A stretch of 64,000 bases of DNA from Candidatus Thermoflexus tengchongensis (GTDB taxonomy: Bacteria; Chloroflexota; Anaerolineae; Thermoflexales; Thermoflexaceae): contig JAEVEX010000049.1 of NCBI GenBank assembly GCA_016842085.1, forward strand, positions 1 to 64,000, read 5' to 3'. Positions 52,450-63,988 of the stretch are shown here, one piece after another. Below the pieces are notes generated by a model. It had not been told where the DNA came from and made no database searches. It was given only the letters and a program-made list of their open reading frames with translations. Each line of letters starts with the position of its first letter. Within the stretch, counting starts at the first letter, position 1. The translations under genes and the position numbers were made by a program.

Positions 52450-53880
52450 TCATGGCGCTTGCCTTCGATAGAGACGCCATCCGGGCCAGGAGGCTTCCAG
52501 CATGAAGCCAGGCGGTGCTCGCAGGCGATAACGAGCTTCCAGGGGGCCGATGGCCCCCTGGGGGGATTCGGCGACCAGCAGCCAGCGCACAAAGCGCTCC
52601 GGGCGACTGACCGCCAGCTGGAAGGTGGGATCCGGGGGCAATACAAAGGGGCATGCGGTCCCGGCGCGGGCGATGAGGCGATAGGCCTGCCGATCATCGG
52701 CCAGGACGCTCCCGCAGGGCAGGCGGGCCAGGCGTGCGGCGATTTCCTCCTCGACGGCATCCGCCGTTGAGGGTTTTTCCGCCCACAGCGCAGCCCACCA
52801 GCGCTCCCGCTCACCATAGCGGGTGGAGAACCCATCCACTCCCAGCTGGAGAAGCGCCAGCACCATGAGCGGGATCCCCCATCGGAGTGGAGTCCGTGCG
52901 GGGATCCCGGAGAGCGCGAAGAGCGCTCCCAGGGCCACGCTCAGCTCTCGGGGGAACACTCCGCCCAGGGACCACACGCTCACCATCAGGAGGAGGGGGA
53001 TCAGATAGGCGGGAAGCCGTCGGGGCTGCAGATGCGCGATGAGAACACCAACGCCGAGGTAAAGCGGGGTGTTCAGCAACCTTTGAACGAGCTCGTGAGC
53101 CATCGCTCCCAGGGTGAGGAAGGCCTCGTCCGGCCGGAAAGCGATCAGCAGGCTGGAGCCCGGATCGTAGAGGAAGGCCAGGGGTTGACCTGTGAAGAGC
53201 CAGGAGAGATAGATCCATGCGCCGACGGTCATCGCGGTAGGGAACGCGAGGACCATCAGGATAGCCAGTGTATGGCGGGGGTCACGGGTGTGAGCGAAGA
53301 GGGGGGCGGCAAGGGCGAAGGTGAGGGCAAACGCTGGCGCGTAGAAGCTGGCATAAAAGGCGAAGCCGATGATCAGAGCAGCGAGAAAGCCGGCATCCGT
53401 CCGCCCATAGCGGGTAAACGTCAGATAAGCCTGCCAGGCCCACAGGAAGAGAACGAGGGCCATGGTCGTTCCGAAGCGCTGGGTGGCCAGAAAGAGGATC
53501 GTGGGCATCCCCATGAAGCTGAGGAGCAGCCCAGCACGGATCCAGGGTGGGAAAGGCAAAGCCTGCAGGCGACGCCCGACGCTCCAGGCCAGCAACCCTC
53601 CGCTCAGACTGGCCAGGATCACAGCAGCCGGCAGGATGGGCCACGGAAGCAACATCAGGACCGGAAGAGGAGGATATGCAAAGCCGATCCACTCCAGCCG
53701 GCCGCGATCCCGAACCAGGAGCGCTTTCTCAATCAGATGGGCGTGCTCATGGCTCATGAATCCACGGGACAGCGAGGCCGCCCCGACGATGAGGAAAGGG
53801 AGGCTGAGCCCGCAGATGGCGATCCCTTCCCAGACGATGTGGCCGAAGGCGGACGCTCGCTTCCAGGTGGAGGGGGGCAT
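52450..53880 (-). CDS. Polytopic membrane protein of the exopolysaccharide operon
   Basis: The 476-residue protein has a first hydrophobic segment (GIAICGLSLPFLIVGAASL), an acidic/His loop (GFMSHEHAHLIEKALLV) and about 9-10 further segments. A soluble C-terminal domain of about 110 residues follows (VEEEIAARLARLPCGSVLADD). The layout resembles GT-C glycosyltransferases (loop acid after helix 1) but the signature is weak. The ATG at 53878-53880 follows AGGAG. It follows the GT2 synthase gene by 36 bases in the same direction, so it likely belongs to that operon as a transferase, transporter or accessory protein. Confidence 0.6.
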   Translation of the reverse strand: MPPSTWKRASAFGHIVWEGIAICGLSLPFLIVGAASLSRGFMSHEHAHLIEKALLVRDRGRLEWIGFAYPPLPVLMLLPWPILPAAVILASLSGGLLAWSVGRRLQALPFPPWIRAGLLLSFMGMPTILFLATQRFGTTMALVLFLWAWQAYLTFTRYGRTDAGFLAALIIGFAFYASFYAPAFALTFALAAPLFAHTRDPRHTLAILMVLAFPTAMTVGAWIYLSWLFTGQPLAFLYDPGSSLLIAFRPDEAFLTLGAMAHELVQRLLNTPLYLGVGVLIAHLQPRRLPAYLIPLLLMVSVWSLGGVFPRELSVALGALFALSGIPARTPLRWGIPLMVLALLQLGVDGFSTRYGERERWWAALWAEKPSTADAVEEEIAARLARLPCGSVLADDRQAYRLIARAGTACPFVLPPDPTFQLAVSRPERFVRWLLVAESPQGAIGPLEARYRLRAPPGFMLEASWPGWRLYRRQAP

Positions 53881-53916: not shown

Positions 53917-55845
53917 TCAGGCGCTTCCCTCTCCCGGATTCCCATGGACATCTCCCAGCCAGCGGCTGAGGCCGTGGGTGGTCTTCTCCCAGTAGAACGG
54001 CCGGGTGAACAGTTGCCAGAGGGCCTTGTAGGCGGCAATGCTATGGAGGATCCAATAGATCGGATTCAGCAATGCCCATGGGATCAGGTCGTAATACCCT
54101 CGCTTGAACCCGGCCAGCATATTCAGGTAAATCCCAATGGCGTTCCCGATCAGTAAATTGAATAGGCTGATATAAAGAACAGGCGGTGGGAAGAAAGGAT
54201 CCAGCGCGTGAGTGCGGGTGATCACCCACCAGGCGAACATCACCCACAACCATGGGGCGGCTAAAAAGGTGAGGGGCGTCCCCGCCACCAGCAGGAAGAA
54301 GCCCAGGGTCCGGCGGAGGCCAATCCGTCGGACCAGGCGCCAGGGATGGCGCGCGTGGACCAGGGCGGTCTGCATGTATCCCTTGATCCAGCGGGAGCGC
54401 TGGCGGATCCAGTTCCCAACCTGCGTGTTGGCCTCCTCGTAGGTCGTGCTCGGGATCACTCCCACCTCGAATCCCTCCACAATGGCCCGGATGCCCAGGT
54501 CCGCATCTTCCGTGACATTGAAGGGATCCCATCCGCCCAGCTCCCGCAGGCGTTCAGTGGGGAAATGATTGCTCGTCCCCCCCAGGGGAATCGGCATGCC
54601 CAGTCGATACAGGCCCGGGAGCATGTAATCGAACCAGTAAGAATACTCCAGGGTGAACATCCGGGTGAGGAAATTCTCTCGCGCGTTGAAATAGTTCAGC
54701 GCAGCCTGGACGCAAATCAGGCGTGGCCCTCCCTTCCGGAAAGCCAGGATAGCTTTCTTAAGCTGATCCGGATCCGGGCGATCTTCTGCATCATAAATGA
54801 CCACGTAGTCTCCCGAGGCGAAGAAGAGGCCCACGTTGCATGCTTTGGGCTTGGTTTTGGGGATCTGATCCGGGATCAGAATAAAACATACGTTTCCGGG
54901 GGGCCGCGCCGCCTTCGCGGCTTCAAAGGTCTCTCTGTCGTCCTCCTCGATCAGCAACAGGATCTCCAGCTTCTCCGGCGGGTAGTCCAGGCGCTTCAGG
55001 TTGGCGAGCAGGGTGCCGATCACGCTGGCCTCCCGATACACCGGGACCAGGATGGTGTAGCGCGGCAGCTCTTCGTCCTTCAGGGCTGCGACTTCTTCCT
55101 CCAGGATCGGGGTTTCCCGTTCGTGGCGGGCTCCGACTATGGAAACCACGAACTTGAAAAGAACGCTGGCCAGAAAGAAGAGGTTCGCAAGGCCGTTGAG
55201 AAGAATCATGGTGAGGCGCGGAGCCAGGGCCAGTCCCAGCAGGGTGCTCATCAGCACCAGCGCGAAGGCGAAGAACTGGGCGCGGGTGAAAACGGTATGG
55301 GCGGATTCCTCGGGGCGCCGATAATACAGGCCATAGGTGGCTGATGCAAGCACATCGGTTCTGAAAAAACGTAACAGGGTTCGCCGGATATCCCACTCGG
55401 TGGTCGCCCGCACCCGTGCCACCGGCCTTCCGAAACGCCGGGCGGCCTCTTCCAGCAGGGCCGCGTCCGGGCGTCGGGCCGTGGCGATCTCCAGCCCCTC
55501 CGGCGTCTCCCGAAGGGGGAGGATCCAGGATTCCATGATCTCCTCCGGCCGGAATCGGCGGAGCAGCTCCGGATCCGGGGGCTCCTGGAGGAGATCCACG
55601 AAAGGAACCCCCCACAGATCCGCCAGGGTCTGATAAAGGTCATAGCGGCGTACCAGACCCCGGGAGAGCAGGATCTGCCCCAGACGCTCCCGGGTCTGTG
55701 CCTGAATCCGAAGCGCCCAATCCAGATCTTCGGGCCGCAGCAGCCCTCGCGCTACCAGGGCTTCGCCCAGGCGCATCGGCGGATGCGTCTTCCCTTCCTC
55801 GCTTTCGGTTCGAACGGGGCCGGTTGAAGCCGTCAGGGCTTCCAT
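53917..55845 (-). CDS. GT2 processive glycosyltransferase with N-terminal MshEN (c-di-GMP-binding) domain
   Basis: This is a 642-residue protein. Residues 25-48 and 54-77 are two 24-residue MshEN motifs (RLGxxLVxxGLL... and RLGxxLLxxGLV...) with the canonical 5-residue spacer; the final Gln of motif 2 is Leu. The rest of a GspE_N-type domain extends to about 150. Two membrane helices follow, then the GT-A domain: YTILVPVYREASVIG, DAEDRPDPDQL (DxD), TEDADLG (base) and QRSRWIKG (QxxRW). Three or four C-terminal helices complete a BcsA-like channel. No PilZ domain is present. It makes an unknown beta-linked polysaccharide, probably activated by c-di-GMP through MshEN. Confidence 0.88.
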   Translation of the reverse strand: MEALTASTGPVRTESEEGKTHPPMRLGEALVARGLLRPEDLDWALRIQAQTRERLGQILLSRGLVRRYDLYQTLADLWGVPFVDLLQEPPDPELLRRFRPEEIMESWILPLRETPEGLEIATARRPDAALLEEAARRFGRPVARVRATTEWDIRRTLLRFFRTDVLASATYGLYYRRPEESAHTVFTRAQFFAFALVLMSTLLGLALAPRLTMILLNGLANLFFLASVLFKFVVSIVGARHERETPILEEEVAALKDEELPRYTILVPVYREASVIGTLLANLKRLDYPPEKLEILLLIEEDDRETFEAAKAARPPGNVCFILIPDQIPKTKPKACNVGLFFASGDYVVIYDAEDRPDPDQLKKAILAFRKGGPRLICVQAALNYFNARENFLTRMFTLEYSYWFDYMLPGLYRLGMPIPLGGTSNHFPTERLRELGGWDPFNVTEDADLGIRAIVEGFEVGVIPSTTYEEANTQVGNWIRQRSRWIKGYMQTALVHARHPWRLVRRIGLRRTLGFFLLVAGTPLTFLAAPWLWVMFAWWVITRTHALDPFFPPPVLYISLFNLLIGNAIGIYLNMLAGFKRGYYDLIPWALLNPIYWILHSIAAYKALWQLFTRPFYWEKTTHGLSRWLGDVHGNPGEGSA

Positions 55846-55927: not shown

Positions 55928-57967
55928 TTAGGAGGCGGGCAGGGCGGGGCCCGGAGGCCGGGTTCGCACCACCCGCGGATAAACCCAGATCAGGAAAGCC
56001 AGCAACGCAAGGAAAGCGGCTCCCAGCGCCCACGGCCACAACCGGGACCACCAGACGGCCGGGCTGGGAGGCAAAGGCTCCACCCGCAGCCCTGTGCCGC
56101 GCACACGGATCTCCACCGGGGACTCCCCGGCGGGCCAGATCCACACGTCTCCGCTTAACCCATACCATCCCAGCTGAGGATCGAAAGCGCTGGCGAGCGC
56201 ATGGAGCTCCGGCGTCTGACCCCATCGGGTCAACAGCAGCAGATCGTGGCCCCCATGTTCAAACGCTTCCAGAACCATGAAAGAGCGATCTGGATCCAGG
56301 CGAAACCGTTCCCGGCCATCCGGATCCAGCAGCCGGAACGGCCGGGGATCCAGAGGCGGGTGAAGATCCTTTATGGCCTCCGGGTCCTTTGTGATCAGGA
56401 CCCGTGGCATTCCAGCAGAAAGAGCCTTCTCCCATGATAGAACCTCCGGCTGGAGCGCTCGGCGGGTGGTCCGCTGGAGAAGCATCACCAGCTGGGCAGC
56501 GGCGTTCAGCGTCGATTCGTCCATGGGGTGCAGACCCACCACGAAAGCAGGCATGAGGACCTGAGGGAAGCGCTCGAACCCGGGAGCCAGCCTCTGGCCC
56601 GCCTGCGATTCAAGATAGGAGGCCCCATTGATGAAAACGGTCAAAGGATGTATGCCAATCCGACAATCTCCGCCCGGAGGCGTGTAATCCACCCGGACGA
56701 TGAGGGTGTTATCCCGCCGGATCAATCCGTCCGGGAGTGCGATCCAGCGATCGAAGGTGCCGCCGCCGATCGGCTCCGCATAGGCCAGCCCCCCATTCAG
56801 AAAGACCAGCAGGCTGGCCCGCCCTCCCTCAGGGACCGGGCTCATCTGCCCGGCCAGGCGGAAGCGTAATCCGCGAACCGGCCCCCCCAGATCGCTCTGC
56901 GAGAAGAAGAAAGCGGTTTCCATGGGCCCAGAGCCCCTCATCTGCACCTGGGAGTATCCCAGCTCGGCAAGGGTGATCCGACGAGGGACTTGCCCTTCCG
57001 GCACTGCCCCTGGTCCTGGAGCGATCTCTGGAAACGGCAGGGCTTCTCCGTAGCTCAGAATGGATTCCACCATCCTGAGGGCAGCGCCGGATGGTGCCTG
57101 GATTTCCAGCATCGGGAAGCCCTCCTCGGGGAAGCGCAGCCCTGCGCGCGATTCGCCCCGTTTGATCTGGACCATGCGGGTCCATGGATCCCAGGGATCC
57201 AGAGGGGGAAGATCCCCATCCAGCCGGATCGACACCGTTAAGGGGCGGCCGGTGGCCCGTCGCGTTCCGAACGCCACCAGCCGCAGTGCGGCGGTGGCCT
57301 CATCATACGTGGGCTCAGGGGGTAGCAGGAGGATCAGCGAACGGAGATCGGGTGGCCAGAAGGCGGCGATGGTGCGGGGAGGCTCGGGTGTTCCCTCCAG
57401 ATGCACGTGCAGGTCCTCCAGCTCCACCCTCTCCGTGAGGGGGAACATGCAGGGGTCTGCATCCCGGGGTGGAATCAGCCGGAAATTCAGGTTCAGACGC
57501 TCATGATCGATCTGCCCTTCGTGGAGCCCCACATGGAGGGGGAGTTCTCCGGGACTCAGGGGAATCCATGTTAAGGTTCGTTCTCCATTGCGGACTTCCA
57601 GGCGTCCGCCCGCCAGACCCGGGCTGCTGCGAAGACGGCCGGTCAGCTCCATGGCTTGCAGCCCCCGTGGGATCGGCACGCTGAGCGATCGCTCTGACAT
57701 AGGGCCATACAGGATCAGGGGATCCGGCTGTCCGAATTCCCGAAGAGGGATCTCCCATGTCCCGGAGGGATGATCTCCCCCGGAATGGAGGAGCCTGTGG
57801 GGATCTGGGCGGATGGAGGTTCCCTGGATGTCGTTATGAGAACGGCCTGTTGCTGGAATGGTTGCTGGAAAGGCCAGCAGAGAGAGGGCCAGAGCCATCG
57901 TGAGCCCGATGGCCCGTGGGATCGGCGGACAGAACGTCCGGCCCATATGCCGTTGCAGCGCTCTCAT
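55928..57967 (-). CDS. BcsB-like cellulose-synthase regulatory subunit
   Basis: The 679-residue protein has an N-terminal signal peptide (IGLTMALALSLLAFPATIPA) and a single C-terminal membrane helix (PWALGAAFLALLAFLIWVYP) with a basic cytoplasmic end. In between are beta-rich modules matching BcsB layout: LAELGYSQVQMRG with a jelly-roll start, LTVFINGASYLES and RDNTLIVRVDYTPPGGDC. BcsB guides the nascent chain and contacts BcsA by its C-terminal anchor. It lies directly before the GT2 synthase gene on the same strand (82 bases). The ATG at 57965-57967 follows GGGGGTCTCC. Confidence 0.78.
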   Translation of the reverse strand: MRALQRHMGRTFCPPIPRAIGLTMALALSLLAFPATIPATGRSHNDIQGTSIRPDPHRLLHSGGDHPSGTWEIPLREFGQPDPLILYGPMSERSLSVPIPRGLQAMELTGRLRSSPGLAGGRLEVRNGERTLTWIPLSPGELPLHVGLHEGQIDHERLNLNFRLIPPRDADPCMFPLTERVELEDLHVHLEGTPEPPRTIAAFWPPDLRSLILLLPPEPTYDEATAALRLVAFGTRRATGRPLTVSIRLDGDLPPLDPWDPWTRMVQIKRGESRAGLRFPEEGFPMLEIQAPSGAALRMVESILSYGEALPFPEIAPGPGAVPEGQVPRRITLAELGYSQVQMRGSGPMETAFFFSQSDLGGPVRGLRFRLAGQMSPVPEGGRASLLVFLNGGLAYAEPIGGGTFDRWIALPDGLIRRDNTLIVRVDYTPPGGDCRIGIHPLTVFINGASYLESQAGQRLAPGFERFPQVLMPAFVVGLHPMDESTLNAAAQLVMLLQRTTRRALQPEVLSWEKALSAGMPRVLITKDPEAIKDLHPPLDPRPFRLLDPDGRERFRLDPDRSFMVLEAFEHGGHDLLLLTRWGQTPELHALASAFDPQLGWYGLSGDVWIWPAGESPVEIRVRGTGLRVEPLPPSPAVWWSRLWPWALGAAFLALLAFLIWVYPRVVRTRPPGPALPAS

Positions 57968-58013: not shown

Positions 58014-58889
58014 TTATTCCTGGATCCCCAGGGTTCCGGACAGAAGGAGGGGGCGGCCTTCCCGTTTGGCCTGGCGTTTGAGGGCCGCGAGATGCTGCAC
58101 CAGGGCCTCCAGATCCACCTCGCGGGCGGGATCTACCACCCCGCCCACAATAGAAACCGAAAGCTCTGGAGCCTCAACGGTTTCTGGAAATCGCTCCAGG
58201 ATATGGCGGGCAACGGGGCTGAGAACATGGGGCCGGGTGAGCAGCACGAAATCGTCGCCGCCGATATGGCCGATGAAATCCCGGGAGGGATCCCCGTGGG
58301 CGGCCATCGCCTCCTGGAGCAGGCGGGCGAACGCCTGGAGCACGCGGTCCCCCGCCCGAAAACCGTAGCGATCATTGAAGGCTTTGAAGGCGTTCAGATC
58401 AATGTATGCGATCCCGAAGGGCTCGCCGTTTTCCAGGCGTCGACGGATCTCCCGTTCGATCTCAGGGTTCCCGGGGAGCCCGGAGAGTGGGTTGACCGCC
58501 CTTTCCCTCTGGGAGCGGCGGAGGTGCATCTCGATCCGGGCCAGGAGCTCGGGAATCGCCACCGGTTTGGTCAGATAATCATCCGCGCCGGCGCGGATGC
58601 CCCGCAGTTTATCCTCCACCCGTCCCAGCGCCGTGAGCATGACGATCGGAACCGTGCGCATATGCCAGAGCTCCCGGATCCGTCGACAGACTTCCACGCC
58701 GTTCAGGTCCGGCAGCATAATATCCAGCAGGATCAGATCCGGTGGATGGTTGCGCACCCACTCCAGAGCGGAGGAGCCATCCTCGACTGCATCCACATGA
58801 TAGCCGGCGTTTTTCAGGACGATCGTGATCAGCTCACGCAGATCTCGATCATCTTCGACCACCAGAATTCGTGCCTGGGAAGCAGACAT
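58014..58889 (-). CDS. Response regulator with GGDEF domain (putative diguanylate cyclase)
   Basis: The 291-residue protein has receiver residues 8-120 with acidic pocket E12/D13/D14, phospho-acceptor D56 in LILLDIMLPDLNG and Lys of YLTKPV. The GGDEF domain then shows VNPLSGLPGNPEIE, FGIAYIDLNAFKAFNDRYGF and the active-site loop GGDDF (HIGGDDFVLL). No RxxD inhibitory site precedes it. It could be an active cyclase. The ATG at 58887-58889 was preferred to a longer frame with no ribosome site. It begins the minus-strand operon with BcsB-like and MshEN-synthase genes. Confidence 0.85.
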   Translation of the reverse strand: MSASQARILVVEDDRDLRELITIVLKNAGYHVDAVEDGSSALEWVRNHPPDLILLDIMLPDLNGVEVCRRIRELWHMRTVPIVMLTALGRVEDKLRGIRAGADDYLTKPVAIPELLARIEMHLRRSQRERAVNPLSGLPGNPEIEREIRRRLENGEPFGIAYIDLNAFKAFNDRYGFRAGDRVLQAFARLLQEAMAAHGDPSRDFIGHIGGDDFVLLTRPHVLSPVARHILERFPETVEAPELSVSIVGGVVDPAREVDLEALVQHLAALKRQAKREGRPLLLSGTLGIQE

Positions 58890-60624: not shown

Positions 60625-60670
60625 CCAGACCTCGCCGAAGGGCGTTCTCATCTTGTTTGAGGAGGGCCGG

Positions 60671-63600
60671 ATGCCGGACCTGGATCCGTTAATCACAGAG
60701 TATGCCAGAAGGCTGGAGCATCAGTTGCAAGAGCTACTCCCCCGCAAGCCGGTGGAGAAAGAGCTTCAGGAATCTCTGGATCACCTCCTGAATGAGTTTT
60801 GCGGGGAGGCAGGTCTGAACCCTCTTGCCCGCCAGGAGTATTCCCTCGCCACCGGGCGCGCCGACGCGATCTTCAACCGGATGGTGATTGAATATAAACA
60901 GCCCGGGCGTCTTTCCGAGCGTCTCTCCCATGAGCCGACCCGCCAGGCAGTGGAGCAGGCGAAACGCTACATCAAGGAGCTGGCCCGGCAGCAGCGGCTG
61001 GAGAGTGGCCGTCTGGCCGGGATCGTCCTGGATGGTCGGTATATCATCTTCATCCGCTATACGGCAGGACGCTTTGCGGAAGAGCCTCCTGCGCCAATTC
61101 GCCGCGAATCCCTCGAGCGGATGCTCCGCTGGCTGGCCGGCCTGGCCTCCGGGATCGCGCTGACGGCGGAAAATCTCACCCAGGATTTCTCGATCGAGCA
61201 GCTGCGCACCCAGAAGGTCCTGCGGGCCCTTATGGAGGGCCAGAGGCAGGTGTTCAATCAGGACCCGAGGGGGATTGTGCGCTCTCTGTTCGAGCAGTGG
61301 CGGCTTTTCTTCAGCGAATCTATCGATTACACGGAGGCCCTGGAGGGGCGCAAGCTGGAGCCCCTCCGCAGGTGGATCCGGCAGGCAGGTCTGAACATCG
61401 ACTCGCCCGAAGAAGCGGAGCGGTTTTTCTTCGCCCTGCACACTTACTTTGCCCTGCTGGTGAAGCTTCTTGCCTGGCTGACCCTCTCCCGTCATCTGGC
61501 GGTCAGGCTGGGCGCCCCCTCCTTCGGCGAGCTGGTCCGCGCCGACAGCGAAACCCTGCGCCGCCGCCTGACGGAGATGGAGTCCGGCGGGATCTTCCGG
61601 GCCTATGGCATCACCAACCTCCTGGAGGGCGATTTCTTCGCCTGGTATCTTCATGCATGGAACGAGCGCATCGAGAGTGCCCTCCGGGATCTCCTCCAGC
61701 GTCTGGACGAATATGACCCGGCCACCCTGGCGATCCTCCCGGAGGAGAGCCGGGATCTCTTCAAGAAGCTGTATCACTACCTCCTGCCCCGGGAGATCCG
61801 GCACAACCTGGGGGAGTATTACACGCCGGACTGGCTGGCCCAGCGGTTGCTCCATCAGGTGGACAGCGAATTCTTCGCCGCTGACCCGCGGCGCAACGAG
61901 AAGCGGCTGCGGGAGAAGTTGCTCAGCACGCGCTGGCTGGATCCGGCATGCGGCTCCGGCACCTTTCTGGTGCTGATCCTCGGCCGGATGCGGGAGCTGG
62001 GGCAGGAGCTGATGATCCGGGAATCCGATCTGCTTCAGGCCATGCTGCGCAACGTTGTGGGCTTCGATCTGAACCCCCTGGCGGTGACCACCGCCCGTGT
62101 CAACTATCTCCTGGCCATCGCCGATCTGCTGCCCTACCGCAGGGAGAGCATCACGCTGCCGGTCTACCTGGCGGATTCCATCCGCACCCCGGCCATCGGC
62201 GAGACCCTGGAGACGGCGGACGCTTATGAGTTCCCGACGGCAGTTGGCTCCTTTCTGGTGCCGGCAGCGCTCTGTCGGCCGGAGCGCTTCGATCGCTTCT
62301 GCGACATGCTGGAGGAAAGCATCCGGGCGGGGCTCTCCCCGGAGAGTTTCATGAGGCGGATCGAGGCCGAGCTCCACCTCCTGCCTCCGGAGTGGACAGA
62401 GAAGGACGTCCGCCGGACACGGGAGCTTTACGAGAAGGCGGTGGATCTTCACCGCAACGGCCTGAACGGGCTCTGGGCACGTCTGTTAAAGAACAACTTC
62501 GCTCCCCTCACCGTGGGACGGTTCGATTACGTTGTGGGCAATCCTCCATGGGTGAACTGGGAGCATTTGCCCAACGGGTATCGGGAGAGCATCGCGGACC
62601 TCTGGCGGAAGATGAGCGCGGGAGGGCCTGTCTACCTGGGCAAGAAGTGGGACATCTCGTTGCTCATGACCCAGGTGGCCCTTGCCAATCTGTTGAAGAA
62701 TGGCGGACGGTTGGGTTTCGTGATCACCCAATCGGCCTTCAAAACCAACCTCGGGGGGCGGGACTTTCGAAAATTCCAGCTTCCGGATGGGACGCCGATC
62801 CGCGTTGTGCATGTGGATGACATGGTCTCGTTGCAGCCTTTCGAAGGAGCCTCCAACCGGACTGCTGTGATGGTGCTGGAAAAGGGCAAGCCCACCCGCT
62901 ACCCTGTGCCTTACACCATCTGGCGGAAAGCGCGGGGGGCCCGCTTCACCTATGATAGCACCCTGGCAGAGGTGATGCGCGCTACCCGGCGCCTGAATTT
63001 CGCCGCCGAGCCTGTTAACCCCAGCGATCCGACCTCCCCATGGCTCACGGCCCGGCGGACGGCTCTTAAAGCCCTCCGCAAGGTGCTGGGAAAGTCCGAT
63101 TACGAAGCACACGAGGGCGTTAACACCGGCGGGGCCAACGCCGTCTACTGGGTGGATATCGTCGACGAGCGCCCCGATGGGCTGATGGTGGTGCGCAACA
63201 TCACCGAGGGCGCGAAAGTGAAGGTGGACGAGGTCATCGAGCCGATTGAACCCGACCTGCTCTATCCGCTCCTGCGGGGGCGGGATGTCCAGCGGTGGCA
63301 GGCGAAGCCGTCGGCCTGGATCATCATGACCTACCTCGAAACCGGCGAAGGGCCCCGCATCATCGAGCTTTCGGAGATGGAATACCGTTACCCCCGGGTT
63401 CTGGCTTACTTCCGGCAATTTGAGTCCGTCCTTAAACGCCGAACTCACTACAGGCACTACTTCCAGCCATCAGGCAAACCCTTCTACGCCATGATGCCTA
63501 TGCCAGGCTCCTTCGCCCCGTGGAAGGTGGTGTGGCGGGAGGTGGCGCACACCCTTGATGCCGCTGTTGCTTCGCCTTTGGAGGGCAAGCCTGCCGTGCC

Positions 63601-63988
63601 GGCTCATACCCTTGTTCTCATTGGGTGTAAGAGCAAAGAAGAAGCCCATTACCTCTGCGCAGCGCTGAACTCTGCGCCAGCCCGCCTTGGGGTTCAAGCC
63701 TATATCGTGCTCCATCCCGATCCCCATATCCTGGAGCACATCCGCATTCCCCGCTATGATCCGAAGGACCCGGTGCATCGGCGGCTGGCGGAGTTATCCG
63801 TGGAGGCGCACCGGGCAGCGAAGGCGGGGGACAGGAAGCGCCTGGAGCGAATCGAGGCCGAAATCGATCGGGCCGCCGCGCGGCTCTGGGGGCTTACCCG
63901 GGAGGAGCTGGCGGAGATCCAGCGGAGCCTCGCCGAGCTTCGGGAAGCCACGGCTGAGGCAGAGGAGGAGAGGGAGGAACGCGGATGA
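60671..63988 (+). CDS. Type IIG-like restriction endonuclease/adenine methyltransferase
   Basis: In this 1105-residue protein, residues about 40-85 hold a PD-(D/E)xK nuclease signature (ATGRADAIF then VIEYKQPG). A helical spacer follows. The N6-adenine methyltransferase core has REIRHNLGEYYTPDWLAQRLL, WLDPACGSGTFLVLILGRM (motif I), VVGFDLNPLAV and VVGNPPWVNWE (motif IV NPPW). The C-terminal region has TaqI-like target recognition features (LYPLLRGRDVQRW, LGCK-like VLIGCKSKEEAHYLCAALNS) and a coiled-coil tail. The ATG at 60671 follows GGAGGG; a TTG six codons earlier is possible. Its TGA overlaps the next ATG. It could also be the methylase of a multi-gene defence system. Confidence 0.85.
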   Translation: MPDLDPLITEYARRLEHQLQELLPRKPVEKELQESLDHLLNEFCGEAGLNPLARQEYSLATGRADAIFNRMVIEYKQPGRLSERLSHEPTRQAVEQAKRYIKELARQQRLESGRLAGIVLDGRYIIFIRYTAGRFAEEPPAPIRRESLERMLRWLAGLASGIALTAENLTQDFSIEQLRTQKVLRALMEGQRQVFNQDPRGIVRSLFEQWRLFFSESIDYTEALEGRKLEPLRRWIRQAGLNIDSPEEAERFFFALHTYFALLVKLLAWLTLSRHLAVRLGAPSFGELVRADSETLRRRLTEMESGGIFRAYGITNLLEGDFFAWYLHAWNERIESALRDLLQRLDEYDPATLAILPEESRDLFKKLYHYLLPREIRHNLGEYYTPDWLAQRLLHQVDSEFFAADPRRNEKRLREKLLSTRWLDPACGSGTFLVLILGRMRELGQELMIRESDLLQAMLRNVVGFDLNPLAVTTARVNYLLAIADLLPYRRESITLPVYLADSIRTPAIGETLETADAYEFPTAVGSFLVPAALCRPERFDRFCDMLEESIRAGLSPESFMRRIEAELHLLPPEWTEKDVRRTRELYEKAVDLHRNGLNGLWARLLKNNFAPLTVGRFDYVVGNPPWVNWEHLPNGYRESIADLWRKMSAGGPVYLGKKWDISLLMTQVALANLLKNGGRLGFVITQSAFKTNLGGRDFRKFQLPDGTPIRVVHVDDMVSLQPFEGASNRTAVMVLEKGKPTRYPVPYTIWRKARGARFTYDSTLAEVMRATRRLNFAAEPVNPSDPTSPWLTARRTALKALRKVLGKSDYEAHEGVNTGGANAVYWVDIVDERPDGLMVVRNITEGAKVKVDEVIEPIEPDLLYPLLRGRDVQRWQAKPSAWIIMTYLETGEGPRIIELSEMEYRYPRVLAYFRQFESVLKRRTHYRHYFQPSGKPFYAMMPMPGSFAPWKVVWREVAHTLDAAVASPLEGKPAVPAHTLVLIGCKSKEEAHYLCAALNSAPARLGVQAYIVLHPDPHILEHIRIPRYDPKDPVHRRLAELSVEAHRAAKAGDRKRLERIEAEIDRAAARLWGLTREELAEIQRSLAELREATAEAEEEREERG

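Follow-up and report, generated by a model that had tools for sequence, protein, structure and literature searches.

We analyzed a 64-kb stretch of DNA from Thermoflexus, a hot-spring bacterium, hereafter called the window. Four co-directional genes in it encode, in order, a REC-GGDEF protein (58889-58014), a BcsB-like protein (57967-55928), a synthase (55845-53917) and a membrane protein (53880-52450). Their features are as follows:

58014..58889, minus strand: REC-GGDEF response regulator with a GGDDF motif, candidate cyclase (P0002; Pfam Response_reg and GGDEF)
55928..57967, minus strand: BcsB-like exported partner (P0003, 679 aa, with a hydrophobic stretch at each end; Pfam BcsB and homologues)
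53917..55845, minus strand: BcsA-like GT2 synthase with N-terminal MshEN (P0001, 642 aa, ATG start; ORF, Pfam, NCBIfam, predicted fold)
55615..55773, minus strand: MshEN c-di-GMP motif pair of P0001, residues 25-77 (24 + 5 + 24; NF053729, 54.2 bits)
55351..55614, minus strand: MshEN C-subdomain of P0001, residues 78-165 (Pfam PF05157 at 78-163, 51.3 bits)
53962..55128, minus strand: GT2 core and C-terminal transmembrane helices of P0001, residues 240-628 (Pfam PF13632 and PF13641; BcsA fold match)
52450..53880, minus strand: membrane protein with a GT-C fold, encoded by the conserved third gene of the cassette (P0004, 476 aa; AlphaFold2, Foldseek)

The start codon of P0002 is likely the ATG at 58889; a longer ORF starting with TTG reaches 59015. 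A promoter scan of the operon gave nothing above chance, and the Rfam search of the 64-kb window detected tRNAs only, with no c-di-GMP riboswitch at the gathering score. At the window edge, an ORF of 1111 aa on the plus strand (60653-63988) matched Eco57I/MmeI-type methyltransferases and may encode a type IIG restriction-modification enzyme.

MshEN domain of the synthase

The N-terminal region of P0001 contains motif 1 at residues 25-48 (RLGEALVARGLLRPEDLDWALRIQ), the spacer AQTRE at residues 49-53 and motif 2 at residues 54-77 (RLGQILLSRGLVRRYDLYQTLADL), exactly where the sequence-only reading had placed two MshEN motifs separated by five residues. NF053729, the NCBIfam model of the MshE-related c-di-GMP motif, matched P0001 with 54.2 bits (E 9e-15; cut-off 38 bits), and judged by sequence the motif pair exceeds chance. 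The Pfam MshEN match (PF05157, 51.3 bits; cut-off 23.1 bits) spans residues 78-163, that is, the C-subdomain outside the ligand motifs. The profile of the family N-domain matched structures of PilF, PilB and MshE. MshEN was not recovered in fold searches with the whole P0001 model because the GT core fills those lists, and this result says nothing against the domain.

Eleven of the 12 consensus ligand positions are kept in P0001. The sole departure, as had been stated before and as holds for the ligand consensus, is Leu77 in place of the Gln that ends motif 2. Across the synthase family, this position is occupied by Leu (32), Gln (21), Val (12) or His (12); Leu is the commonest residue, indicating that Leu77 is characteristic of the family rather than peculiar to P0001. 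In MshE, each Gln of the motifs forms two hydrogen bonds with the ligand (PMC5013675). The GSPII-A domain of Thermus PilF is related to MshEN, deviates from the motifs at several positions and fails to bind c-di-GMP (PMC12002112), and the change from Gln to Leu at residue 77 is thus a real uncertainty for P0001.

Leu77 would fit an alternative in which the MshEN domain of P0001 is a non-binding relic or a structural or docking module, as in PilF GSPII-A and XpsE. The synthase would then be constitutive, or the REC-GGDEF protein would control it by direct contact, its GGDDF domain serving for protein interaction. The same alternative is favored by GSPII-A, which fails to bind even with the consensus restored, in its native context (PMC12002112). 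It is harder to reconcile with the conservation of the domain, as the glycines of the two motifs and the hydrophobic residues that contact the ligand are retained throughout Thermoflexus. The motif region has no amino-acid change relative to the nearest Thermoflexus relative (95% identical, dS 0.31), and its omega in more distant Thermoflexus comparisons was 0.07-0.18, versus approximately 0.07 for the GT core. By these sequence comparisons, the motif region is under strong purifying selection in the genus, comparable to that on the GT core. In addition, canonical cyclases occur alongside relatives whose motif 2 ends with Leu, Val or His, and changes of Arg9, Asp12 and Gln32 in MshE are reported to have an at most approximately fivefold effect (PMC5013675). 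Overall, we consider a non-binding MshEN unlikely.

Glycosyltransferase core and conserved gene cassette

The GT2 motifs of P0001 are E300/D303, D352-A-E-D355, T445-E-D (445-447) and Q482-R-S-R-W486, and the key residues of these motifs are invariant in 38 homologues. TED and QxxRW (as QRSRW) had been named previously and are present; the strict DxD also named is not, as the sequence at 352-355 is DAED. AlphaFold2 prediction on 38 family members gave a model with a pLDDT of 88.1 and a pTM of 0.87. The GT core and transmembrane part of this model matched BcsA (VIA-align) with Z-scores of 31.2 (9b8v, E. coli BcsA), 27.2 (9fnn) and 26.8 (4p00) and an rmsd of 3.2-3.7 over 387-398 residues; hyaluronan synthases were also among the fold matches. 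The GT profile of the family scored 69 bits with E. coli BcsA, 30 bits with PgaC and 20 bits with NfrB, indicating that the GT domain is nearer to BcsA than to NfrB, which is itself fused to MshEN. A simple origin of P0001 by permutation of NfrB was rejected on the basis of these scores.

P0001 shares the GT2 core fold and, through P0003, a BcsB-like partner with the BcsA-BcsB cellulose synthase, and differs from it in several respects. The model has approximately two transmembrane helices before the GT domain and three after it, a layout resembling that of PgaC, whereas BcsA usually has eight transmembrane helices. The gating-loop motif FxVTxK of BcsA is absent from P0001. PilZ was found neither in P0001 by Pfam search nor in the genome of the window, in agreement with the sequence-only reading; a PilZ protein elsewhere in the genome was rejected as the real receptor for the same reason. 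Without PilZ and FxVTxK, and with only approximately five predicted helices, the channel is no copy of that of BcsA, and the product need not be cellulose. The profile searches proposed earlier with MshEN and BcsA models were divided: the MshEN models scored above their cut-offs, but the curated CelA model TIGR03030 reached only 47 bits against a cut-off of 699.1. The NfrB equivalog NF008411 also remained below its cut-off (36 bits versus 1170), and its best stretch covered the MshEN region only. PgaC/PgaD is likewise a GT2 synthase under c-di-GMP control, but it senses the ligand without MshEN and its sequence match is weaker.

The gene upstream of the synthase encodes a divergent BcsB homologue, as confirmed by sequence profiles. 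P0003 alone matched Pfam BcsB with 21 bits, at the cut-off. The assignment as a BcsB partner is based on its homologues: all 24 that were aligned matched Pfam BcsB (best 6.8e-29), and their profile matched solved BcsB structures with an E of about 1e-10. P0004 had no match in Pfam, and its fold was assigned by structure prediction; the AlphaFold2 model (pLDDT 91.8) matched ArnT, OST and DPY19 in Foldseek. Sequence, predicted fold and gene neighborhood thus agree with the earlier description of a BcsA-like synthase that has a BcsB-type partner and an N-terminal MshEN domain replacing PilZ.

Relatives of P0001 are encoded in at least 567 of 588 candidate stretches of the genome collection and span about a dozen phyla. 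The best 80 are labelled as Chloroflexota, Thermus, Aquificota, Gemmatimonadota, Actinomycetota, Cyanobacteria, Synergistota, Bacillota, several proteobacterial lineages and others. Within Chloroflexota, 59 of the 400 sampled genomes have a relative at E 1e-50. Of 80 related loci, 64 had enough flanking sequence upstream of the synthase gene, and 33 of these have a BcsB-like gene there; 74 had enough downstream, and 55 of these have a GT-C-like gene, indicating that the cassette is conserved well beyond Thermoflexus. In most Actinomycetota, a BcsB-like gene beside the synthase was not detected. A Geobacillus plasmid typed as conjugative carries BcsB, MshEN-GT2 and GT39 genes together with a sugar-phosphate nucleotidyltransferase gene; here the counterpart of P0004 is annotated as glycosyltransferase family 39. 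The cassette can therefore be mobile, and Gram-positive bacteria are among its hosts. One contig labelled Acidobacteria encodes a synthase that is placed within a group of Microbacteriaceae in the tree, and the contig is likely mis-binned.

Candidate cyclase and c-di-GMP proteins of Thermoflexus

The REC-GGDEF gene at the head of the operon was overlooked by the sequence-only reading and is a stronger functional clue. P0002 matched Pfam Response_reg with 112 bits and GGDEF with 64.8 bits. Across six Thermoflexus genomes, P0002 and its orthologues keep the metal-binding Asp, the Asn of FND and the Asp of GD. The signature is GGDDF, which is atypical compared with the GG[DE]EF of diguanylate cyclases. 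GSU1937, a Hypr-type protein, was the first active GGDDF enzyme reported, and its GGDDF domain made both cGAMP and c-di-GMP (PMC8835794).

The genome of the window encodes one MshEN domain and two GGDEF-like domains, and no EAL or HD-GYP domain, that is, no recognizable phosphodiesterase. PilZ, EAL and HD-GYP were also absent from four further Thermoflexus genomes (five in total), one of which is a single contig. Among the GGDEF-like proteins of Thermoflexus, only P0002 and its orthologues keep the catalytic residues examined, and the paralogues have lost at least one. The second paralogue, P0005 (L003:1294-2226), is located approximately 136 kb along the contig of the window and is conserved across Thermoflexus. 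It is also a REC-GGDEF protein with GGDDF, but its metal-binding Asp is replaced by Gly and its FND by FQE; P0005 is probably a GGDEF protein without catalytic activity.

P0002 is the first gene of the synthase operon here and is found upstream of that operon in two more Thermoflexus genomes. In a single-contig sister genome, its orthologue is approximately 530 kb from the synthase operon. No orthologue was found in a seventh Thermoflexus genome, whose contig ends near the operon. P0002 looks like the only plausible producer of c-di-GMP in Thermoflexus, beside the only receptor of a known type. We tentatively propose a near-minimal circuit in this genus, in which one REC-controlled GGDDF cyclase would act on one MshEN-synthase receptor with no recognizable phosphodiesterase or PilZ; the two genes occur together in at least three genomes. 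If so, it would be among the simplest natural c-di-GMP systems. The absence of EAL, HD-GYP and PilZ from the Thermoflexus genomes examined and the loss of catalytic residues in the other GGDEF-like paralogues would also suit the non-binding MshEN described above, as would the several lineages that retain the GT domain without intact motifs.

In these lineages, the N-domain lacks the motif glycines or is absent altogether, corresponding to five to seven changes on the GT tree. Canonical GGDEF domains were present in all 46 tested genomes outside Thermoflexus whose synthase of this family keeps both motif glycines. They were present in 11 of the 29 tested genomes with a degraded or absent motif, and absent from the other 18. 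The association was strong by Fisher's test (p 4e-10), but the losses are clustered. When MshEN integrity was compared with GGDEF content under control for phylogeny, there were four independent pairs, of which approximately two agreed, none disagreed and two were tied; this was not significant. Since only four independent pairs exist, the link between motif integrity and GGDEF content is suggestive only. In five Chloroflexota genomes whose synthase lacks MshEN, relatives of the REC-GGDDF protein are the main GGDEF-like matches; HD-GYP is present and EAL absent in these genomes.

Proposed regulation and comparison with known systems

We propose, with a probability of approximately 0.7, that P0001 is an exopolysaccharide synthase gated by a cyclic dinucleotide through its MshEN domain, with the signal coming from the REC-GGDEF protein of the operon. 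P0001 would provide the catalytic subunit in an exopolysaccharide machine of the synthase-dependent type. Its BcsA-like GT2 core would polymerize a nucleotide sugar, and the chain would be extruded through the membrane with the BcsB-like partner on the outside; the GT-C-fold transferase P0004 may modify or anchor the product. In the most economical reading, c-di-GMP or a related dinucleotide from P0002 would bind MshEN and switch the synthase. The source of the signal is most likely P0002 itself, for which phosphorylation of the receiver domain would be the switch. Leu77, the atypical GGDDF signature, the separation of approximately 530 kb in the sister genome and the lack of a detected phosphodiesterase count against a gated synthase.

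Alternatively, the GGDDF protein could supply cGAMP or a further dinucleotide, instead of c-di-GMP, as the ligand in Thermoflexus, in keeping with the two products of GSU1937 (PMC8835794) and with weak binding of cGAMP by MshEN (PMC5013675). We consider this improbable, as MshEN favors c-di-GMP several hundred fold (0.5 µM versus 330 µM; PMC5013675).

If the N-domain gates the synthase as we propose, it would provide a second route, besides PilZ, to c-di-GMP control of BcsA/BcsB-type machines, and would explain hundreds of exopolysaccharide operons, some of them in Gram-positive bacteria and thermophiles, that are as yet unstudied. As a one-cyclase, one-receptor system, Thermoflexus would allow signal specificity to be tested without a background of dozens of enzymes. 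This genus gains interest from having a single candidate cyclase, encoded in the operon, and apparently no other receptor or phosphodiesterase of known type.

The suggestion that the arrangement would be a different way of switching polysaccharide export holds for the architecture, but the novelty is smaller than suggested, as there are hundreds of such loci and MshEN fused to glycosyltransferases was mentioned earlier (PMC5013675). The design of P0001 is real, well formed, widespread and apparently unstudied as a family; it is a variant of the established MshEN-GT fusion and no new category. In the open-access literature, outside which most subscription journals lie, we found no paper characterizing a synthase that has MshEN at its N-terminus and is paired with BcsB. 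The MshEN/GSPII domain is best known from pilus motors, and the MshE, PilB and PilF ATPases share it with P0001 (PMC5013675, PMC12002112), but P0001 lacks an ATPase domain and its motif 2 ends with Leu instead of Gln.

NfrB of E. coli is, like P0001, a GT2 synthase fused to MshEN, and shares with it DAED, TED, QxxRW and a C-terminal KTTH signature. NfrB binds c-di-GMP with a Kd of about 1 µM, and this binding is needed for its function (PMC8669469, PMC8669472). Unlike in P0001, its MshEN is C-terminal, its GT domain is more distant, and it works with the outer-membrane protein NfrA and with YbcH, BcsB being absent. Besides the MshEN at residues 489-626, part of a second MshEN-like motif is present close to the C-terminus of NfrB, at residues 691-730 (18.8 bits).
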